A DNA stretch of 64,000 bases, from assembly GCF_014385085.1 (NCBI RefSeq), contig NZ_JACRTD010000006.1, positions 1-64,000 on the forward strand, read 5' to 3'. The translations under genes and the position numbers were made by a program. The notes beneath the pieces were generated by a model. The model had not been told where the DNA came from, made no database searches, and worked only from the letters and a program-made list of their open reading frames with translations. This DNA is from Youxingia wuxianensis. Lineage in GTDB: Bacteria; Bacillota; Clostridia; Oscillospirales; Ruminococcaceae. Shown here piece after piece: positions 4,215 to 18,419 of this stretch (its first letter is position 1; each line of letters starts with the position of its first letter).

Positions 4215-4262
4215 CGCAATACCTCCAAGTGGCAACAAAAACAACCTGTTTGTGTATTTAAT

Positions 4263-4325
4263 GGATATATTTTGGTTATATTTTGATTGTCTTTTAAAAA
4301 CATTATATAAACTACATCAAAATAT
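4263..4325. promoter_or_regulatory. Cluster of TATATTTTGG-type motifs at the iolJ promoter
   Basis: GGATATATTTTGGTTAT at 4263-4279, a second half-match TTATATTTTGATT at 4277-4289 and an inverted copy (ATCAAAATATG, 4316-4326 region) surround the iolJ transcription start. Near-identical motifs occur upstream of iolB (7660-7676) and iolC (5331-5343). Likely operators of the DeoR-type regulator encoded nearby; this is inferred from recurrence and position. Confidence 0.55.
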
Positions 4326-4330
4326 GTCAA
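4302..4330 (-). promoter_or_regulatory. Consensus sigma-A promoter for iolJ-iolA
   Basis: Minus strand TTGACA (4330-4325), 17-bp spacer, TATAAT (4307-4302): perfect consensus. Such a strong promoter next to repeated operator-like motifs suggests control by repression. Confidence 0.8.
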
Positions 4331-4350
4331 TATAAAATGAAAATTTAAAG

Positions 4351-4387
4351 AAAAAAAGGCTGATCGCACAATTGCATCAGCCTTTTC
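4351..4387 (-). terminator. Terminator after the DeoR-type regulator gene
   Basis: AAGGCTGAT and ATCAGCCTT form a 9-10 bp stem (4357-4383) with an 11-base loop, followed on the minus strand by a run of seven T. It can also act rightward because T-run follows on the plus side. Confidence 0.75.
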
Positions 4388-4408
4388 ATAGTTATTTTGT
4401 ACTATTTT

Positions 4409-5167
4409 TTAATCAGCAATTACCAATTCTACTCCGTGCTCCCGGAAATAATCCAGGTATTCCTGGGAGGGGGCCTTGTCCGTAATGATCACGTCCGCAT
4501 CCTCGATCCTGCCGAACGTCATTAAAGACACATCCCCAAATTTACTGCTGTCAATTAACATATAAACCTTATGACAGCGGGAGATAATCGCCTTTTTTAC
4601 CTCGTATTCTCCCTGGGAGGAATTGGTCAGTCCGCTGCCGATGGAAAGGCCGGTAGCAGACATAAACGCCTTTTTAATATTATAACGCTCTAACAAGCGG
4701 GCGGCGTCAGGACCTACGGTAGAATAGGTATTCCGTGCCAGCGCCCCGCCGGTGGAAACTACATGAAAGTCATTGGCATAAATGGATTTTACCACAATTT
4801 CCAGGTTGTTTGTAAACAGGGTGAGCCGTTTTTTCTCACTGAGCTGGTTAAACAAAGTAGTTGCGGTGGTGCCGGAGTCAATAAAAAGAGTATCGTCATT
4901 GTCTATAAATTCCGCCGCTTTTCGAGCGATGCGGTTTTTCATATCCATATTTTTAATATTGCGCTCTTCAAAGGGGATAGTTTCCTGGGTTTTGTTGGAG
5001 GTCACCCCACCGTAAATCTTGTTGACTACGCCTTTAGCAGATAATGTATCCAGGTCTCTGCGAATCGTATTGCGGGAAACATGAAAAACCTCGCACAAAT
5101 TATCTATCGTAACGGTTTTGTGCAAATTGATATAATCTTCAATCTGTTCAATGCGCTTTACTCGCAA
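4409..5167 (-). CDS. DeoR-family transcriptional regulator (probable IolR-like repressor)
   Basis: N-terminal winged helix-turn-helix (VTIDNLCEVFHVS then RNTIRRDLD, DeoR signature) and a C-terminal sugar-phosphate sensor domain with the DSGTT motif near residue 97. Length 252 residues is usual. The start is set at TTG 5167: GGAGGTGA lies 8 bases upstream, and this ribosome site would itself fall inside the coding sequence if the upstream ATG at 5182 were used. It is divergent from iolC and flanked by iol genes, so control of inositol genes by an inositol-derived sugar phosphate is the simplest reading, but not shown. Confidence 0.85.
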   Translation of the reverse strand: MRVKRIEQIEDYINLHKTVTIDNLCEVFHVSRNTIRRDLDTLSAKGVVNKIYGGVTSNKTQETIPFEERNIKNMDMKNRIARKAAEFIDNDDTLFIDSGTTATTLFNQLSEKKRLTLFTNNLEIVVKSIYANDFHVVSTGGALARNTYSTVGPDAARLLERYNIKKAFMSATGLSIGSGLTNSSQGEYEVKKAIISRCHKVYMLIDSSKFGDVSLMTFGRIEDADVIITDKAPSQEYLDYFREHGVELVIAD

Positions 5168-5196
5168 ATGGTTCACCTCCATCCTAGCTATTATTC

Positions 5197-5225
5197 AGTA
5201 TATTATCTTTTGGAAGAAAAATCAA
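5197..5225 (-). promoter_or_regulatory. Promoter for the DeoR-type regulator
   Basis: Minus strand TTGATT (5225-5220), 17-bp spacer, TATACT (5202-5197), about 30 bases before the coding start. Confidence 0.6.
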
Positions 5226-5276
5226 TTCTATTTTCCCTCAAATTTTAATATTTTTGGAGTTTTTCCAGAAAAAACG

Positions 5277-5304
5277 TTGACTTTTATTCGTAATAAACTA
5301 TAAT
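5277..5304 (+). promoter_or_regulatory. Sigma-A promoter for iolC
   Basis: TTGACT (5277-5282), 16-bp spacer, TATAAT (5299-5304). The start point would be about 5311, with the inverted operator-like motif at 5331-5343 about 20 bases downstream. Confidence 0.7.
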
Positions 5305-5330
5305 GTAATTAATATTAACCCAATATTTTT

Positions 5331-5343
5331 CCAAAATATACCC
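5331..5343 (-). promoter_or_regulatory. Operator-like motif in the iolC leader
   Basis: On the minus strand this reads GGGTATATTTTGG, identical over 13 bases to the iolB-upstream motif. A partial second copy (ACCCAATATTTTT) lies just before it at 5318-5330. Proposed target of the divergent DeoR-type regulator. Confidence 0.5.
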
Positions 5344-5374
5344 ATTTCAGTGATGAACAAAGGAGTGTTAGACA

Positions 5375-6394
5375 GTGAAATATGTAGAATTTGACGCTTC
5401 CCGCCCGTTGGATATTATCCCGTTAGGCCGTGCCTGTATCGATTTTAATCCGACTGATATTAACCAGCCTCTTTCCAAAAGCAGCAATTTTATCAAGTAT
5501 GTAGGCGGCTCCCCTGCCAATATCGCGGTGGGCATGGCTCGTTTAGGAAAAAAATCCGGATTTATCGGCAGGGTTTCTGACGATCAGTTCGGCGATTATG
5601 TAATCGATTATTTTAAAAATGACGGAATTGATACTTCTCATATCTTCCGCGCTAAAAACGGCGAGAAACTGGGTCTGACCTTTACGGAAATTCTCAGCCC
5701 CACCGAAAGCAGCATCCTCATGTATCGGGACGCTATCGCCGATCTAACGCTGGACCCGTCGGAAGTGGACGAGGATTACATAAAGTCCGCCAAAGCCCTT
5801 CTGATTTCCGGTACCTCCCTGTGCCAGAGCCCCTCCCGGGAAGCGGCTCTGAAAGCTATGGAGTTGGCGAAGAAAACAAACACTGTCTTAATTTTTGATA
5901 TAGACTATCGTCCTTACAACTGGAAATCCAAGGATGAAATTGCCGTTTACTACTCCACTGTTGGCAAAAACAGCGATATCATCATGGGATCCAAAGAGGA
6001 ATTTAATCTGATGGAAGCTTTGATGGTGGACAAAGAGGAAGACGACGCGGCTACCGCGGCCAGATGGCATAAGTTCGGCGCCAAAATCGTCATCATTAAA
6101 CACGGCAAGCAGGGATCGACCGCTTATACCAATGACGGCCTGTCCTATTCCATCAAGCCGTTCCCTGTGGATTGTCTGAAATCCTTCGGCGGCGGCGACG
6201 GTTATGGTTCCGCTTTCCTGACCGCTTTGATGGAAGGCTGGGAAATGATGGACGCCTTGGAGTTCGGCAGCGCTTCCGCCTCCATGCTGGTATCCGCCCA
6301 CAGCTGTTCCGCGGCTATGCCAAAAATGGAAGAAGTCAAAGAGTTTATCCGCCAAAGCAAAGAAAAGTACGGCGAAATGGTAGCCCGCGGATAA
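5375..6394 (+). CDS. iolC: 5-dehydro-2-deoxygluconokinase
   Basis: Phosphorylates 2-deoxy-5-keto-D-gluconate at C6 with ATP, giving the substrate of the IolJ aldolase. A PfkB/ribokinase protein of 339 residues with GGSPANIAVGMARLG near 44-58 and the ATP/catalytic-base motif GGGDGYGSAF with Asp275; the usual GAGD is GGGD here. Starts with GTG, AAGGAG about 9 bases upstream. Divergent from the DeoR-type gene and convergent with iolB. Assignment rests on family match and the surrounding inositol genes. Confidence 0.9.
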   Translation: MKYVEFDASRPLDIIPLGRACIDFNPTDINQPLSKSSNFIKYVGGSPANIAVGMARLGKKSGFIGRVSDDQFGDYVIDYFKNDGIDTSHIFRAKNGEKLGLTFTEILSPTESSILMYRDAIADLTLDPSEVDEDYIKSAKALLISGTSLCQSPSREAALKAMELAKKTNTVLIFDIDYRPYNWKSKDEIAVYYSTVGKNSDIIMGSKEEFNLMEALMVDKEEDDAATAARWHKFGAKIVIIKHGKQGSTAYTNDGLSYSIKPFPVDCLKSFGGGDGYGSAFLTALMEGWEMMDALEFGSASASMLVSAHSCSAAMPKMEEVKEFIRQSKEKYGEMVARG

Positions 6395-12589: not shown

Positions 12590-12802
12590 ATGGATTGCAA
12601 AAAAGAAACTCCGGCAGTGTTTATCGCTGTTGAAGAGAACGCAGCATATGCGTGTCCCCAACAGATGGAACTTGCCATGTTCTATACTCCGTGGCAGGAG
12701 TGGTGTTCTGTATACGAGCCTGAAGTTGCCCTTGAAAGAGGCACGGTTTTTCCAGGGTTAGATAAACCTTTCATTGGACAGGAGGCGGTTCCCAATGTGT
12801 GA
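12590..12802 (+). CDS. cotJA: Spore coat protein CotJA
   Basis: Small coat component needed, with CotJC, in the inner coat. The 70-residue product contains the family core MFYTPWQEW near 30-38 and GTVFPGLDKPF near 52-62. GGAG lies 10 bases before ATG 12590. It overlaps cotJB by 8 bp, so the two are translationally coupled. It is the first gene of the cotJABC operon, whose third gene is split (see 13053-13166 and 17505-18419). Confidence 0.9.
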   Translation: MDCKKETPAVFIAVEENAAYACPQQMELAMFYTPWQEWCSVYEPEVALERGTVFPGLDKPFIGQEAVPNV

Positions 12803-13046
12803 GCGTCGTCGTTTATTAAAAGTTATTCAAAATTATGATTTCACCTTATATGACCTGTCCCTATATCTTGACAGCCATCCAAGGTGTAAAAATGCTCTTG
12901 CCTATTATAGTAAGGTAAAACAAGCACGGGATTGTGCAGTAGCAGAATTCGAAAACAAATTTGGTCCCCTCACCCACAGCAGCGCGGCGAATTTAGAGTG
13001 CTGGCAGTGGGTAAAAGGACCGTGGCCATGGGAATTGGAGGCGTAA
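12795..13046 (+). CDS. cotJB: Spore coat protein CotJB
   Basis: 83 residues with the CotJB pattern LYDLSLYLDSHP, a charged helix, ENKFGPLT and the C-terminal WVKGPWPWE. Start at ATG 12795 is chosen because AGGAGG is 9 bases upstream; a longer frame from TTG 12774 has none. cotJC follows after 6 bp. Confidence 0.9.
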   Translation: MCERRRLLKVIQNYDFTLYDLSLYLDSHPRCKNALAYYSKVKQARDCAVAEFENKFGPLTHSSAANLECWQWVKGPWPWELEA

Positions 13047-13052
13047 TACATT

Positions 13053-13166
13053 ATGTGGATATATGAGAAAAAATTAGAATACCCCGTAAAAATTAAAAAT
13101 CCAAATCCCGCTCTGGCGAAGGTAATCATTAGCCAGTTGGGCGGTCCCAATGGTAAAAAGAGATGA
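13053..13166 (+). CDS. cotJC: cotJC, 5' part, interrupted by the intervening element
   Basis: ATG 13053 opens the CotJC N-terminus: MWIYEKKLEYPVKI ... NPALAKVIISQLGGP, which matches the start of CotJC (B. subtilis begins MWVYEKKLQYPVKV). After Pro32 the frame leaves the gene: NGKKR then TGA at 13164-13166. The crossover point is GG at 13143-13144; joining 13053-13147 to 17552 onward continues DGELGAATRYLQQRY in frame and gives a 320-residue protein. In the split state only a 37-residue stub is made. GGAGG is 11 bases upstream of the ATG. Confidence 0.9.
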   Translation: MWIYEKKLEYPVKIKNPNPALAKVIISQLGGPNGKKR

Positions 13167-13168
13167 TT
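13119..13168. other. Left junction of the element (attL-like)
   Basis: The left 25 bases are cotJC coding sequence; the right part (13145-13168) ends in AAAAAGAGATGATT (13155-13168), the inverse complement of AATCATCTCTTTTT at the right junction. Crossover dinucleotide GG at 13143-13144 within GGTCC. Confidence 0.85.
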
Positions 13169-13231
13169 TATATTGAAAAATGCTCTTCCCTGGGATAAAA
13201 TGAGTATATTAACAGGAGGGGGAGAGAGCGA

Positions 13232-13831
13232 ATGACTGCGCGGATCAGACTGGCGACCATACAAGACGCCAAAGAAATACTGAATATCTATCGTCCTTAT
13301 ATCAAGGATACCTGCATTACCTTTGAATATGAGGTTCCATCCCTGGAAGAGTTTACTCAGCGTATTCGGGATATCTCCCGGGAATATCCTTACCTGGTAT
13401 GTGAAATTGACGGCCGCGTGGTGGGATATGCTTACGCCCACCGTCAGCTGGCACGGGCGGCTTACCAGTGGAATGCGGAGTTGTCCGTTTATGTGGACCA
13501 GGCATATGTGGGCCATAAAATCGGCGGCGCTTTGTATGGCGCCCTGCTGGAAATTTTGGCTTGTCAGAACGTTCAAAATGTCTATGGCCTGGTTACTTCC
13601 CCAAACCCTGGCAGCCAGCGTCTGCATGAAAAATTCGGCTTTGGGATCATGGGGGTCTGTAAGGACACGGGCTATAAAAATGGAAAATGGCACGACGTCA
13701 TCTGGTTTGAAAAAAAAATTGGGCCCCACTCTGCCCCGCCGAAGCCGTTTGAGCCTGTAGACGGGCTCGCGGTCTCTCTTATCAAAAGAATAACCGAAAG
13801 TCATGAAAAAATTATAAAAAAACAGCCGTAA
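13232..13831 (+). CDS. GNAT-family N-acetyltransferase (phosphinothricin-acetyltransferase-like)
   Basis: 199 residues; begins TARIRLATIQDAKEILNIY, and has the acetyl-CoA-binding region VGHKIGGALYGALLE near 90-105 and NPGSQRLHEKFGF near 126-138, as in Pat/YwnH enzymes. The protein probably acetylates a small amine or amino-acid analogue; substrate unknown. AGGAGGGGG lies upstream of ATG 13232. It sits inside the cotJC element, in the cotJ direction, only 65 bp past the cotJC stub, so readthrough from the cotJ promoter could express it. A terminator follows at 13931-13969. Confidence 0.85.
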   Translation: MTARIRLATIQDAKEILNIYRPYIKDTCITFEYEVPSLEEFTQRIRDISREYPYLVCEIDGRVVGYAYAHRQLARAAYQWNAELSVYVDQAYVGHKIGGALYGALLEILACQNVQNVYGLVTSPNPGSQRLHEKFGFGIMGVCKDTGYKNGKWHDVIWFEKKIGPHSAPPKPFEPVDGLAVSLIKRITESHEKIIKKQP

Positions 13832-13930
13832 AACCATCCTGCACCTCTGTGGCCAGCGTTCAAAAACCCGGATGTTTTTCCCCGTCATCAGCGGACGTCT
13901 CCCCGCAAGCTGCAGACTGGGGCTGCAAAA

Positions 13931-13969
13931 AGAAGAGGCCTGTAAGCTTTTCGCTTACAGGTCTCTTTT
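13931..13969. terminator. Bidirectional terminator between GNAT and ACT genes
   Basis: AGAGGCCTGTAAGC pairs with GCTTACAGGTCTCT (one G-U pair); A-rich left side and TTTT right side make it work for both convergent genes. Confidence 0.85.
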
Positions 13970-13980
13970 GTACGGTTAAA

Positions 13981-14412
13981 TTACAGCTCGTTAATTTCGC
14001 TCTGGCAGATAAGTTCAATTCCGTTTTCGGTAAGCACTTTTTTAGCTTTCTCATTGTCCTCCACACGAAAGATCATATATGCCAGATCTTTCTTTCTGGT
14101 GATGAAAGCATAAGTGTACTCCAAATTAATATTATTTTCCCCTAAGAGATCCAGTATTTTTACCAGGCTGCCCGGCTCATCAGAAACTGCCGCAGCCAGT
14201 ACGGGAGTGATTGAGAAGATATAGTTTTCTTCTTTTAAGACACAAGCGGTTTTATACGGATCGTCCACAATTACCCGAAGGATCCCAAAATCCGGAGTTT
14301 CTGCAATAGACAGCGCCCGCATATCAATCCGGTTTTTTTCAAGCACCTTGGTAAATCTCGCCAACTGGCCAGGTTTATTCTCTACAAATACGGAGATTTG
14401 CTTCACGGTCAT
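13981..14412 (-). CDS. ACT domain protein
   Basis: 143 residues made of two ACT modules: VKQISVFVENKPGQLARFTK at 3-22 and AAAVSDEPGSLVKILDLLGE near 74-93. ACT domains bind amino acids and often regulate metabolism. The gene follows the PaaK-type ligase by 20 bp on the same strand, a pairing commonly seen in anaerobes, where it is thought to sense aromatic amino acids or their products. Ribosome site AGAGGTG is 7 bases before ATG 14412. Located inside the cotJC element, which is unusual cargo. Confidence 0.88.
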   Translation of the reverse strand: MTVKQISVFVENKPGQLARFTKVLEKNRIDMRALSIAETPDFGILRVIVDDPYKTACVLKEENYIFSITPVLAAAVSDEPGSLVKILDLLGENNINLEYTYAFITRKKDLAYMIFRVEDNEKAKKVLTENGIELICQSEINEL

Positions 14413-14432
14413 AACAGCGCACCTCTTTCCAA

Positions 14433-15734
14433 TTAATACAGTTTCCGGTTGTCGATTACACGCACCGCCTTGCCTTCGCTGCGGGCGATGGTTTTCGGCG
14501 CTACCAAGCGCACTTCCGCATAAATTCCCAGCATTGCCTTCATAGCTTCCACCAGTTCTTTTTCCCGGTTAGAAATCTCACTTAAATTATCCGAGAACAT
14601 TTCCGGCGTCATCTCCACCTGAACCTCTAAGCGGTCGCTGTTGTTGACCCTGCTGACAATAATCTGATAGTTTGCCGGATAACCTTTGTTCAGCAGCACA
14701 GTTTCAATCTGAGACGGGAATACATTGACGCCCTTGACAATGAGCATATCGTCGCTGCGGCCCATAGGCTTGCTCATTTTTACATGGGTTCTTCCGCAGG
14801 AACATTTCTCCCGGTTAAGAACACAAATATCGCGGGTACGGTACCGGAGCAGCGGGAAAGCCTGTTTGGTGATGCTGGTGAACACCAATTCCCCTTTCTC
14901 TCCATCCGGCAGGACCTCCCCTGTGACTGGATTGATAATCTCCGCAATAAAATGGTCTTCATTTACATGCATCCCGGTTTGTTCGCTGCATTCAAAAGAA
15001 ACGCCCGGACCGGAAATTTCAGTAAGGCCATAAATATCGTATGCCTTAATTCCCAATTTATTTTGAATGTCCTGGCGCATTTCTTCGCTCCAAGCTTCCG
15101 CGCCGAAGATCCCCGCTTTTAATTTTATTTTATCCCGAAGTCCTCTTTCCAGGATGCTTTCCGCCAGATAGGCCGCATAAGAAGGAGTACAGCAAAGAAT
15201 GGTGGCTCCTAAATCGGTCATAAACTGAATCTGCCGATCCGTGTTTCCTGAGGACATAGGCAGCGTCAGGGAGCCGACTTTATGAGAACCTCCATTGAGC
15301 CCCGGTCCCCCGGTAAACAGACCGTAACCATAGCATACCTGAACCACATCGTCTGCCGTTCCGCCCGCTGCAACAATCGCTCTGGCGCAGCAGTCATCCC
15401 ACAGATCGATATCATGCTGGGTATAAAAGGCGACCACCCGTTTTCCGGTAGTACCGCTGGTGGATTGGATACGAACGCAGTCGTGAAGCGGAACTGCGAG
15501 CAGGCCATAGGGGTATGCTTCTCTTAAATCGTCCTTTGTAAGAAAGGGGAGTTTATGTAAATCTTCCGTGGACTTAATATCCCCCGGAGTTACCCCTTTC
15601 TGCTCCATCAAGTTCCTGTAATAGGGCACATTATCATACACATGTTTTACTGTTTTTACCAGGCGTTCATCCTGCCAAGCCTTTATCTGCTCCCGAGACG
15701 CACATTCAATCTCGGGACGGAAGTAATTCCCCAT
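14433..15734 (-). CDS. paaK: Phenylacetate-CoA ligase family protein
   Basis: Adenylate-forming enzyme that activates an aryl-acetate with ATP and CoA. 433 residues, normal for the family: N-terminal NYFRPEIECASREQIKAWQ, P-loop-like STSGTTGKRVVAFYTQHD near 91-108, YGLTEISGPGV near 234-244 and the C-terminal GRSDDMLIVKGVNVFPSQI. The start at 15734 gives the family N-terminus and AAGGA is about 10 bases upstream; the frame can be extended to 15788 but the extra residues are not typical. Together with the ACT gene it suggests use or scavenging of aromatic acids from amino-acid fermentation. Lies inside the cotJC element. Confidence 0.9.
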   Translation of the reverse strand: MGNYFRPEIECASREQIKAWQDERLVKTVKHVYDNVPYYRNLMEQKGVTPGDIKSTEDLHKLPFLTKDDLREAYPYGLLAVPLHDCVRIQSTSGTTGKRVVAFYTQHDIDLWDDCCARAIVAAGGTADDVVQVCYGYGLFTGGPGLNGGSHKVGSLTLPMSSGNTDRQIQFMTDLGATILCCTPSYAAYLAESILERGLRDKIKLKAGIFGAEAWSEEMRQDIQNKLGIKAYDIYGLTEISGPGVSFECSEQTGMHVNEDHFIAEIINPVTGEVLPDGEKGELVFTSITKQAFPLLRYRTRDICVLNREKCSCGRTHVKMSKPMGRSDDMLIVKGVNVFPSQIETVLLNKGYPANYQIIVSRVNNSDRLEVQVEMTPEMFSDNLSEISNREKELVEAMKAMLGIYAEVRLVAPKTIARSEGKAVRVIDNRKLY

Positions 15735-15863
15735 GATTATCCATTCCTTTCTTTTATCTGTCCATCCTATTGGATCAGATTTTACCATCTATATCATAAC
15801 ATGTTACGCTTTTCACGTAAATATGGAATATTACAATGTTTTATGGGATTTTTCCTGATTTTT

Positions 15864-17258
15864 TTAAGAATAATAATGAATTTCGATGGTGCCTTTTCTC
15901 CGGTCAAATATTATTTTGGAAACAAAGGCACAAAGCAGTATATTTTTCTCTCTTTCGCTTATTTTCTCCCCGGAAAGAATTTTGATCAGGCTGTCGCTGG
16001 TCTTTTGAATACATTGAACAGGCCAATTTTCATCTCTTTTCCTTTCCTCTGCTTCCGCTTCCAGGCGCTTTATCCTTTGCTGAACTTCCTTCTTTTTTCT
16101 CTGATATTCCTCCAGGGTGTCCACCCCCGCTTCAAAAGCTTCTTCCAGTCTTTTCATCCTTTTACGCTCCTTATCCAAAAAAACAAGCAACGCTTTGTCC
16201 CGGGTTCTCCCCGTGTTTTTTTCAATTTGTATTTTTATAGTTTGCCCCTTTAGATCCTCCTCCAATTGTCTCAACACCACCCGATTGAGTTTTTCCAGCC
16301 GGATGCTGTGGGAAACAGGACACTTTCCCTTGGCATACCGCTGACATTGAAGCGATTGCCCATTGCGTGTAAGTGTCCCGCCGCAGCCGGAACAGCGCAC
16401 CAGTCCCTGAAGCATATAGTCCGCTCTTCTTTCCCCTGTATCCCCAGTGAAAAAATGGGTTCCTTGGATAAGCCGGCTGTGGGCCTCTTCAAAAATTTTC
16501 TGCTCAATAAGCGGGGGATGCCGGCCATCCATGACAATGGGGGCCGCCTCTTTTATTCCCCGGCGCTGTTTCCCCAAATAAACAGGGTTTTGCAAGATAT
16601 AGGCTACGCTTCTGCTTTCAAATAAATTCCCTTTTACCGTTCTCGCTCCCATATTATTTAGTTTCATAGCAATCTGACGGCAGGAAAGTCCCTCTAAAAA
16701 ATCATGGAAAATCATTTGAACCAAGGGGGCGGCCTGCTCGTCAACAACAAATTTCCCTTTTCCCATCACATAACCGAAAGGCGGTTTTGAAACTACCCCG
16801 CCCTGAGAAAATTTTTCATTCATTCCCCGCTTTACTTCCTGGGCCAGATTGATAGAATAATATTCGTCCATCGCCTCCAAAAGGGCTTCTATTAATACTC
16901 CCGTTGGATCTCCCCCAAGCTGCTCTGTGATGGATATTACATCCACGCCGCATTGCTTGCGGAGCATGGATTTATACAGGATGCTGTCCTGCCGGTTTCT
17001 AGCAAAACGTGAAAATTTCCACACTAAAATCACGTCAAACGGCCGGGGCGTTGTTTTCGCCATCCCGATCATTTTCATAAATGCGGGGCGTTTTTCGGCA
17101 CAGCGCCCACTGATACCCTCATCAAGGAAAATATATTCTTCAGGCAAAACAATTTCGTGATCAGCGGCATATTCTAAAATTTTTTTCTTTTGACTCTGAG
17201 GCGAAAATTCAATCTGTTCTTCGGTAGATACCCGGATATAAGCCGCTCCTGTTTTCAT
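15864..17258 (-). CDS. Large serine recombinase of the cotJC element
   Basis: Site-specific recombinase expected to excise (and originally insert) the element. 464 residues: resolvase domain with nucleophile Ser11 in AYIRVSTEEQ, LDEGISG, and VWKFSRFARNR near 80-90; recombinase domain with GGVVSKPPFGYV near 153-164; zinc ribbon CSGCGGTL ... CQRYAKGKC near 289-315; then a long coiled coil (KERKRMKRLEEAFEAGVDTLEEY). Same architecture as SpoIVCA of the B. subtilis skin element. AGGGGG lies about 9 bases before ATG 17258, inside one arm of the 26-bp inverted repeat shared with the divergent small gene. Confidence 0.93.
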   Translation of the reverse strand: MKTGAAYIRVSTEEQIEFSPQSQKKKILEYAADHEIVLPEEYIFLDEGISGRCAEKRPAFMKMIGMAKTTPRPFDVILVWKFSRFARNRQDSILYKSMLRKQCGVDVISITEQLGGDPTGVLIEALLEAMDEYYSINLAQEVKRGMNEKFSQGGVVSKPPFGYVMGKGKFVVDEQAAPLVQMIFHDFLEGLSCRQIAMKLNNMGARTVKGNLFESRSVAYILQNPVYLGKQRRGIKEAAPIVMDGRHPPLIEQKIFEEAHSRLIQGTHFFTGDTGERRADYMLQGLVRCSGCGGTLTRNGQSLQCQRYAKGKCPVSHSIRLEKLNRVVLRQLEEDLKGQTIKIQIEKNTGRTRDKALLVFLDKERKRMKRLEEAFEAGVDTLEEYQRKKKEVQQRIKRLEAEAEERKRDENWPVQCIQKTSDSLIKILSGEKISEREKNILLCAFVSKIIFDRRKGTIEIHYYS

Positions 17259-17264
17259 AGTCCG

Positions 17265-17326
17265 TTCCCCCTTTTAATAAAACTATATTCAATGAAATGG
17301 GAATATAGTTTTATTAAAAGGGGGAA
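17265..17326. repeat. Perfect 26-bp inverted repeat between divergent recombinase and small gene
   Basis: Arms 17265-17290 and 17301-17326 are exact inverse complements, separated by AATGAAATGG. Each arm holds the AAAAGGGGG ribosome site of one of the two divergent genes, plus TATAGT that could be a -10 box. It fills almost the whole 74-bp intergenic space. Either a symmetric divergent promoter-operator giving equal expression of both genes, or an RNA hairpin that controls translation. Confidence 0.85.
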
Positions 17327-17332
17327 TTTTTC

Positions 17333-17521
17333 ATGTCAATCAAAAAGGAATTAGTCGCCCTTCCTTCCAAGCTACACTGCTCTGACGGCTCCGTCTTATT
17401 GATCCAAAAAATGGATCATGAACAAAAGGCAGAATTTATCCGCCTGGCGGAGCATCGACTGAGTAAATACTATTCTCTGCATCCAGCAAAGTGGAGAAAT
17501 CTTCTTGCCGCATTGGATTGA
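17333..17521 (+). CDS. 62-residue element protein, candidate recombination directionality factor
   Basis: ATG 17333 with AAAAGGGGG 8 bases upstream; product MSIKKELVALPSKLHCSDG ... KYYSLHPAKWRNLLAALD, 62 residues, basic and helix-rich in the C-terminal half. I recognise no family. It ends 2 bases before the attP-like arm at 17523 and is divergent from the recombinase with mirrored control sequences. Serine integrases usually need a small partner protein for excision, often encoded next to the integrase, so this is the natural candidate; that is inference without homology support. Confidence 0.65.
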   Translation: MSIKKELVALPSKLHCSDGSVLLIQKMDHEQKAEFIRLAEHRLSKYYSLHPAKWRNLLAALD

Positions 17522-18419
17522 TAATCATCTCTTTTTTCAATTGGGAGGTCCGGATGGAGAATTAGGCGCTGCCACTCGTTATCTTCAGCAGCGTTACAGC
17601 ATGCCTTTCGATCAGGTAAAGGGGATGCTGACCGACATCGGGACAGAAGAACTGGCACATATTGAAATTGTATCGACTATTCTTTATCAACTGACGAAAG
17701 GGATGTCCATTTGTGATATCAAAAAAAGCGGGTTCGACACCTACTTTATTGATCATACCGCCGGAGTATATCCCCAGGCGGCTTCCGGCATGCCTTTCAG
17801 CGCCTCTACCATCCAGGTAACCGGCGATACCATCGCCGACTTAAGCGAGGATTTGGCTGCGGAACAAAAAGCGCGGCTGACATATGATAATATTTTACGT
17901 CTGGCGGATGACCCAGATGTTCGTGATCCGATTAAATTTCTGCGTGAGCGTGAAATCGTTCACTTCCAGAGATTTGGAGACGCCTTAAGAATCACCCAGG
18001 ATCATTTGGATGCTAAAAACTTTTATGCGTTCAATCCATCCTTTGATATGAAGTGCCCACCCAAAGAAAATCCTTGTGCCTGCGCGCCTGCGCCTGCTGC
18101 TACTCTTACCTCTCCAACCTGTGATGTTCCTCAAACAACTGCTGCATGCGGCTGTGTAAGCGAAACGGTCGTCACCCCTGCTTGCGGCTGCGCAGATACT
18201 ACCGTTGTGAGCTCTCCTTGCGGATATCCCTCACAAACATCAGCGTCTGCCTGTGGCTGCGGGATAGACACTACGGTAGTGGTTCCACCCTGCGGATGCA
18301 CGGCAGAAACCCCAGCGGTTCCTTTTGCCAGTGCTCCCCGAAAAAAATCTGCTCCTTATATGCCGTTTACCCCCAATTGTAACTGCAAAAGCGACAAAAG
18401 AGGATGTCCCCGTTACTAA
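17505..18419 (+). CDS. cotJC: cotJC, 3' part: manganese-catalase-like spore coat protein with Cys-rich tail
   Basis: True coding sequence of CotJC resumes at the crossover GG (17547); the frame is open back to TTG 17505 but those residues (PHWIDNHLFF) and the lack of a ribosome site show it is not an independent start. Ferritin-like metal residues of the Mn-catalase family are present: GELGAATRY, TDIGTEELAHIE, AAEQKARLTY and REREIVHFQRF. After about 165 residues comes a roughly 120-residue tail rich in Cys, Pro and Thr with repeated CGC motifs, absent from the 189-residue B. subtilis protein. It needs excision of the element to be joined to its start at 13053. Confidence 0.92.
   Translation: MPHWIDNHLFFQLGGPDGELGAATRYLQQRYSMPFDQVKGMLTDIGTEELAHIEIVSTILYQLTKGMSICDIKKSGFDTYFIDHTAGVYPQAASGMPFSASTIQVTGDTIADLSEDLAAEQKARLTYDNILRLADDPDVRDPIKFLREREIVHFQRFGDALRITQDHLDAKNFYAFNPSFDMKCPPKENPCACAPAPAATLTSPTCDVPQTTAACGCVSETVVTPACGCADTTVVSSPCGYPSQTSASACGCGIDTTVVVPPCGCTAETPAVPFASAPRKKSAPYMPFTPNCNCKSDKRGCPRY
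17523..17572. other. Right junction of the element (attR-like)
   Basis: Left half belongs to the element and begins with AATCATCTCTTTTT (17523-17536); crossover GG at 17547-17548 within GGTCC; right half is cotJC. Joined with 13145-13168 it gives a dyad of 24 pairs with two mismatches around GG. Confidence 0.85.

Follow-up and report, generated by a model that had tools for sequence, protein, structure and literature searches.

How does a spore former obtain a coat enzyme from a gene that is cut in two within its first thirty-one codons? The question is raised by the cotJ locus of Youxingia wuxianensis, a member of the Ruminococcaceae in the class Clostridia, which lies in a stretch of 64,000 nucleotides (contig NZ_JACRTD010000006.1, positions 1 to 64,000) that was analysed as a whole and is called the window here. 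In it, cotJC, the gene of a manganese-catalase-like coat protein, is interrupted at codon 31 by an element of 4,404 bp that carries a serine recombinase. Very probably, this element is cut out by a crossover at a GG dinucleotide, an event that is likely confined to the mother cell during sporulation and that would rebuild the coat gene exactly.

According to a Pfam search of the open reading frames (ORFs) of the window, cotJA, cotJB, and the start of cotJC follow one another at 12590–13166, with cotJA at 12590..12802 (plus strand; CotJA, E 4e-17) and cotJB, whose start codon is provisional, at 12774..13046 (plus strand; CotJB, E 3e-29). The 5′ piece of cotJC (13053..13144, plus strand) supplies residues 1–30 and the two first bases of codon 31, and its reading frame runs on into the element, where it meets a stop after 37 codons; the 3′ piece (17549..18419, plus strand) begins with the third base of codon 31 and runs through to the stop codon. 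The two pieces give consecutive matches to Pfam Mn_catalase, covering profile positions 1–34 and 31–197, respectively. The element itself occupies 13145..17548 (plus strand), as delimited by comparison of the edges, by the join, and by the junction test described below. The original prediction for this locus, made from the sequence alone, held that both edges carry the same short motif in the same frame and that joining them at GG restores CotJC. Indeed, the left edge reads CAGTTGGGCGGTCC at 13134–13147 and the right edge CAATTGGGAGGTCC at 17538–17551, in one frame and 4,404 bp apart, and the join at GG (13143–13144 with 17547–17548) yields an open frame of 320 codons, in which codon 31 stays a glycine codon. 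The large serine recombinase ascribed to the element is also present, with Resolvase, Recombinase, and zinc-ribbon domains (Pfam). Here, as in skin and gin, two known elements of this kind, the coding sequence of a sporulation gene is interrupted by an element and its halves rejoin in frame.

The ends of the element are inverted repeats, the terminal 24 nucleotides being 92% complementary. Closing the element into a circle brings them together in a dyad that scores 22/24 and is centered on the crossover GG; no such dyad is present in the rebuilt gene. Across an unrelated stretch of 7.4 kb, the same score averages 6.3/24 and reaches 15 or more at 1 of 7,365 positions; given this background and the complementarity of the ends, the dyad is not a product of chance. 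Two attachment sites were delimited by the inverted-repeat search, the join, and the junction test, namely attL at 13119..13168 (plus strand, crossover GG at 13143–13144) and attR at 17523..17572 (plus strand, crossover GG at 17547–17548). The predicted circle junction has the layout of a serine-integrase attP, and the combination of a shared att core with an attP dyad around a central dinucleotide is again that of skin and gin.

Intact relatives and a wider sample were then compared with the window. In a scan of species genomes with the joined CotJC, from which the best 80 loci were kept, 79 align without interruption from residue 1 to residue 196 or 197, and the remaining one, L008, is cut by a contig end. 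A cotJC ending at the same place without the element, which the original prediction had named as the case that would speak against it, is thus absent from these 80 loci, and the closest intact relative in the scan (L001, Anaerotruncus sp. G3, protein 87% identical) has the gene uninterrupted. The DNA alignment of L001 to the window breaks at both edges of the element, with an overlap of 8 bp, and that of L008 breaks likewise at both edges; the alignment of L003 stops at the left edge and restarts 55 bp inside the right piece, and that of L002 covers the right cotJC piece only.

The family of the L001 genome was sampled with 297 genomes, 199 of which have a cotJC match. Among the 150 with better matches, rows read by eye gave 105 with a full-length gene, 43 whose match begins or stops at one of the recurrent interior boundaries, and 2 truncated by contig ends; the remaining 49 were searched again, yielding 42 with boundary pieces, 2 full-length, 2 with a distant relative only, and 3 ambiguous. 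Approximately 85 of the 199 genomes therefore look split and 107 intact. Many of these genomes are metagenome bins, and single split cases may be assembly breaks; the junction test described below is independent of this tally. The same boundaries recur in a class-level sample, in which 221 of 391 genomes match at E ≤ 1e-30. As controls, the SpoVT and SpoIVA of the window, encoded upstream of the cotJ locus by what we take from their sequences to be spoVT-like and spoIVA-like genes, served as queries against the same 297 genomes and matched 274 and 250 of them, with figures drawn from about 150 matches listed. Among the matches listed, that of SpoIVA always starts at or before residue 7 and reaches the end, and at least 10 genomes have two SpoIVA matches; for SpoVT, nine of the matches listed start at residues 6–28, the larger offsets being mostly in long open frames. 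The two control genes show no cotJC-like splits among the matches listed.

A search for absent 5′ pieces covered 42 and 20 split genomes, and 60 junctions from the window and 48 genomes were tested, with one reading-frame position required to serve both sides and the dyad of the circle scored. At codon 31 (site A), the crossover falls on GG in 34/34 junctions, from the window and 33 related genomes, with dyads of 12–23. The second region gives 15 accepted junctions of 19, at GG of codon 62 (7) or GA of codon 65 (8), with dyads of 13–20, while codon 136 uses GA in 2/2 (dyads of 14 and 17) and codon 175 uses GA in 5/5 (dyads of 11–19). Every accepted crossover occupies the two first bases of a glycine or glutamate codon; codons 65 and 136 presumably specify manganese-ligand glutamates. 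At site A, the dyad averages 17.3 with the two ends of the same element and 11.6 with ends swapped between genomes; 3% of the swapped pairs reach 17.3, since the elements have half-site motifs in common. A single-crossover model for the second gap of G502, G543, G327, and G664 failed, with dyads of 8–10. A further element near codon 56, its crossover read by eye, accounts for the failures in G502 and G543. G327 has the same left boundary as these two, and the micro-exon pattern that they show (see below) was not found in it, and G664 combines a left end of the codon-62 type with a right-end recombinase of the codon-65 clade.

The recombinase of the window element (15864..17258, minus strand, 464 aa) has the three-domain layout of a large serine integrase (Pfam). 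It was placed in a phylogeny built from 66 recombinases, of which 52 belong to cotJC elements and 14 have no assigned place. The tree resolves clades for codon 175, codon 65, and codon 62 as well as two clades for codon 31, albeit with weak deep forks; L139 (codon 31) sits apart on a long branch, and the tree program issued a long-branch warning. The same dinucleotide of codon 31 is used by two distant clades, one comprising L132, L138, L141, L144, and L171–L174 and the other of the window type. The tree does not make the window clade exclusive to codon 31, because the 14 recombinases without an assigned place fall there. The association was also read in reverse, starting from recombinases at E ≤ 1e-80 to that of the window, with mostly up to five candidates scored per genome. 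Such a recombinase occurs in 28 of the 297 genomes, all 28 of which have a cotJC boundary at codon 31 (weak in G209), and none of which is among the 107 with intact cotJC. A cotJC piece lies within the fetched flanks of the recombinase in 24 of the 28, and in G153 it lies 2.2 kb away; the fetched flanks in G119, G209, and G222 contain no cotJC piece, those of G209 and G222 being near contig ends.

The split genes of relatives show purifying selection. The ratio of non-synonymous to synonymous substitution rates (dN/dS) was computed for 66 pairs among 12 split genomes over 171 codons from three stretches, and it is 0.000–0.049 in the 8 pairs with dS < 2. G502 and G543, which have collinear site-A elements, differ by 20 synonymous changes and 0 non-synonymous ones. 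Over their whole length, the codon-31 elements of G438, G502, G543, and G664 can be aligned at 85–94%, and those of G466 and G581 at 90%, so these splits are probably shared by descent (the pair G241/G085 lies outside this comparison). Given dN/dS values of 0.00–0.05 in eight pairs, split cotJC is probably still used and would have to be rebuilt.

Taken together, the dyad of attP type, the crossover common to 33 further genomes, the link between recombinase clade and split, and purifying selection support the central claim of the original prediction, that excision by the serine recombinase would rebuild cotJC exactly. In the proposed course of events, attL and attR would be the substrates of the 464-aa recombinase, whose action on them would probably be licensed by the product of a 62-aa ORF beside attR (17333..17521, plus strand), a candidate recombination directionality factor by virtue of its small size, position, and lack of relatives. 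In Clostridioides difficile, the directionality factor of the skin element is CD1234, an orphan of 72 aa controlled by sigma-E and SpoIIID, and the two proteins are alike only in small size and in having no relatives (PMC5025042, available text). The 62-aa ORF diverges from the recombinase gene, and the whole gap between them is taken up by a perfect inverted repeat of 26 bp (17265..17326; inverted-repeat search, DNA fold z-score of −10), which is possibly a control region shared by both. The excised circle, with attP on it, would disappear when the mother cell dies, whereas the forespore would retain the split gene and the element. Loss in the mother cell with retention in the spore fits both the assembly of genomes in the split form and the constraint on the gene. 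The restriction to the mother cell is likely given the known regulation of cotJC homologs, C. difficile cotCB and cotD being listed in the sigma-K regulon in the part of that report consulted (PMC3789822).

Several observations weigh against this account. G354 and G544 also carry an intact cotJC, and many split genomes have a full-length relative that is about 40% identical, so that some of these genomes may not depend on rebuilding. Stops occur inside the cotJC matches of G148, G082, G201, and G037, and in these few split genes they may represent decay. The site-A dyads of G581 and G466 are weak (12 and 13 of 24), the exact junctions of the joined gene and of the circle have 0 matches each in a viral collection, and the sole relative of the 62-aa ORF among about 5.8 billion proteins is a copy 98% identical to it. 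Upstream of 28 recombinases (the window and 27 of the 28 reverse-test loci), a promoter scan found CATA[CT]A in 9/28 compared with 3.6 expected (3/300 shuffles), this being one of five motifs and picked post hoc, and the fuller sigma-E and sigma-K patterns in 1/28 and 0/28.

Some of these points would be accommodated if a mobile element merely integrated into a conserved part of cotJC and left a dispensable gene permanently broken, to be restored only on chance exit. Conserved genes are often the targets of serine integrases, and an intact copy or a 40% relative in some split genomes, together with the stops in a few, would suit a gene that can be spared; so would the finding that spore yield in C. 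difficile is unaffected when cotCB or cotD is disrupted, as stated in the available text of PMC9542656. A broken gene is, however, hard to reconcile with the dN/dS range given above and with the 20 versus 0 changes between two genomes whose elements are collinear, and elements of 2.6–5 kb without recognized transfer genes look resident rather than freshly mobile. We therefore consider permanent breakage unlikely. An intein or an intron was also entertained and rejected, as the dyad and the recombinase point to excision at the DNA level.

If the element instead left and re-entered the gene in growing cells, some vegetative cells would possess an intact cotJC at any time, and such phase variation has a parallel in the yin element of yabG, whose excised form is reported at all culture time points in the accessible portion of PMC10747680. 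The control of the orphan ORF leaves room for it. Against it stand the genomes examined, which were assembled with the element in place, including contigs of 3.6–4.8 Mb. Moreover, a coat protein is useful only in sporulation, and phase variation is judged very improbable. As for an artefact of assembly, many of the genomes are metagenome bins, in which pieces on separate contigs can be assembly breaks. Yet near-identical copies of the window recombinase (99%) and of the 62-aa ORF (98%) each lie on a 95,162-base contig of a public assembly, splits are found inside the 3.6–4.8 Mb contigs of G438, G502, G327, G664, and G577, and the crossover is identical in 34/34 cases, so that an artefact is hardly conceivable. 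Rebuilding of cotJC by excision is the explanation that we retain.

Apart from the recombinase and the 62-aa ORF, which belongs to no Pfam, NCBIfam, or PHROG family, the window element has three metabolic genes, which encode a GNAT acetyltransferase (13232..13831, plus strand; best NCBIfam model ArsN1 family B, below cut-off), a paired ACT-domain protein (13981..14412, minus strand; Pfam ACT_8), and a phenylacetate-CoA-ligase-like protein (14433..15788, minus strand; Pfam, with NCBIfam PaaK below cut-off). No phage structural or lysis genes were recognized among its genes with Pfam and NCBIfam. Endolysin or tail-type genes are present in same-site elements of some relatives, and small codon-31 elements contain endolysin-type amidases and a tail-type protein (L095:2733–3473; L096:2220–3200 and 4253–5650; L135:2898–3803), for which reason the codon-31 elements of relatives are probably reduced prophages with acquired host genes. 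The codon-31 element of G438 bears a dockerin-containing GH44 glycoside hydrolase (L144:11893–14475), a cellulosome-type enzyme within a coat gene, and that of G581 encodes an Fe/Mn superoxide dismutase inside a manganese-catalase gene (L131:16004–16630), with a similar ORF in G466. A circular phage genome from woodrat feces, PQ006094.1 (L223), has an integrase 49.8% identical to the window recombinase; beside this integrase, no attP-like dyad was found at GG, the score being 13/24 at GG or CC and at best 15/24, at another dinucleotide.

In some genomes, cotJC is in three or four pieces. Splits at codons 65 and 175 share a contig in G198, as do those at codons 31 and 62 in G246, and on the single 4.07-Mb contig of G438, the gene is interrupted by a codon-31 element of 4.7 kb and a codon-62 element of 10.6 kb. 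A cotJC micro-exon of about 18 nucleotides stands between two elements in G502 (C1:1586249–1586275) and G543 (C39:42485–42511), remote from the adjoining pieces of the gene and, in G502, tens of kb from the preceding one. In G327, a second manganese-catalase-like gene (40% identical) lies within the intervening DNA between the codon-57 and codon-62 pieces (C1:3121973–3122167). The pieces may also be scrambled. In G480, they are inverted relative to each other on one 5.5-Mb contig (C1:225389–225487, minus strand, and 452992–453489, plus strand), as also in G108 (C83) and G015 (C23), and inversion rather than excision would rejoin them; in G153 (C1:1313657–1325625, L166), their order is swapped across 11 kb, and recombination would place the rebuilt gene on the circle. 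The evidence leans slightly toward a broader view, in which cotJC of Clostridia would be a serially assembled and sometimes scrambled gene with six fixed integrase sites, recombinase lineages linked to the sites, and up to four pieces including the micro-exon of about 18 nucleotides, some inverted or swapped pieces being rejoinable only by inversion or circle formation, that is reassembled in the mother cell at each sporulation.

Among known systems, the skin element of sigK in Bacillus subtilis and C. difficile is alike in splitting a mother-cell sporulation gene that its excision rebuilds and in carrying a large serine recombinase and a small orphan protein, but its target is a sigma factor and it holds 19 genes, whereas the cotJC element sits in a coat-enzyme gene, measures 4.4 kb, has no recognized phage gene, and has an excision that is predicted (PMC5025042). 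The gin element of gerE in B. cereus ATCC10987 resembles it in being no prophage, in using serine recombinases, and in att inverted repeats around a short core, with gerE rebuilt in sporulation; in contrast, gin spans 28.6 kb with three recombinases, while cotJC elements are small, with one recombinase each, and occupy several fixed sites in many species (PMC5595907). By the features tested, the window element appears to belong on the non-prophage, gin-like side of the sporulation gene-intervening elements. Excised elements within sporulation genes also include vfbin (spoVFB), SP-beta (spsM), and yin (yabG), which differ in being prophages or prophage-like with one target site each, and none of those described in the available text of PMC10747680 lies in cotJC. 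The interruption elements of heterocyst-forming cyanobacteria likewise bear serine or tyrosine recombinases that rebuild many genes in terminally differentiating cells, but in another phylum and cell type and in 22 ortholog groups rather than in one gene at six fixed sites (PMC4874684). Finally, the phi027 prophage of C. difficile is a mobile element beside the manganese-catalase coat gene cotG, a homolog of cotJC; it adjoins cotG, which is located downstream of attR, and is described without splitting it in the available text of the two reports (PMC12122855, PMC11222575). Searches of the open-licence literature turned up no element in cotJC, as the original prediction had supposed, and as far as these searches go, the cotJC target, the several fixed sites in one gene, the site-linked recombinase clades, and the genes in three or four pieces are new.

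In practical terms, automatic annotation likely misses or truncates cotJC in many genomes, and the elements offer a large set of recombinases whose att sites can be taken straight from the sequence. Six fixed points in one gene, hit by several recombinase lineages and often two or more together, raise the questions of how such elements evolve, why hosts retain them, and whether one cell can coordinate several excisions. If the account given here is true, a coat gene would join the short list of sporulation genes that DNA excision is known to restore, which suggests that such rebuilding of sporulation genes may be common in Clostridia.

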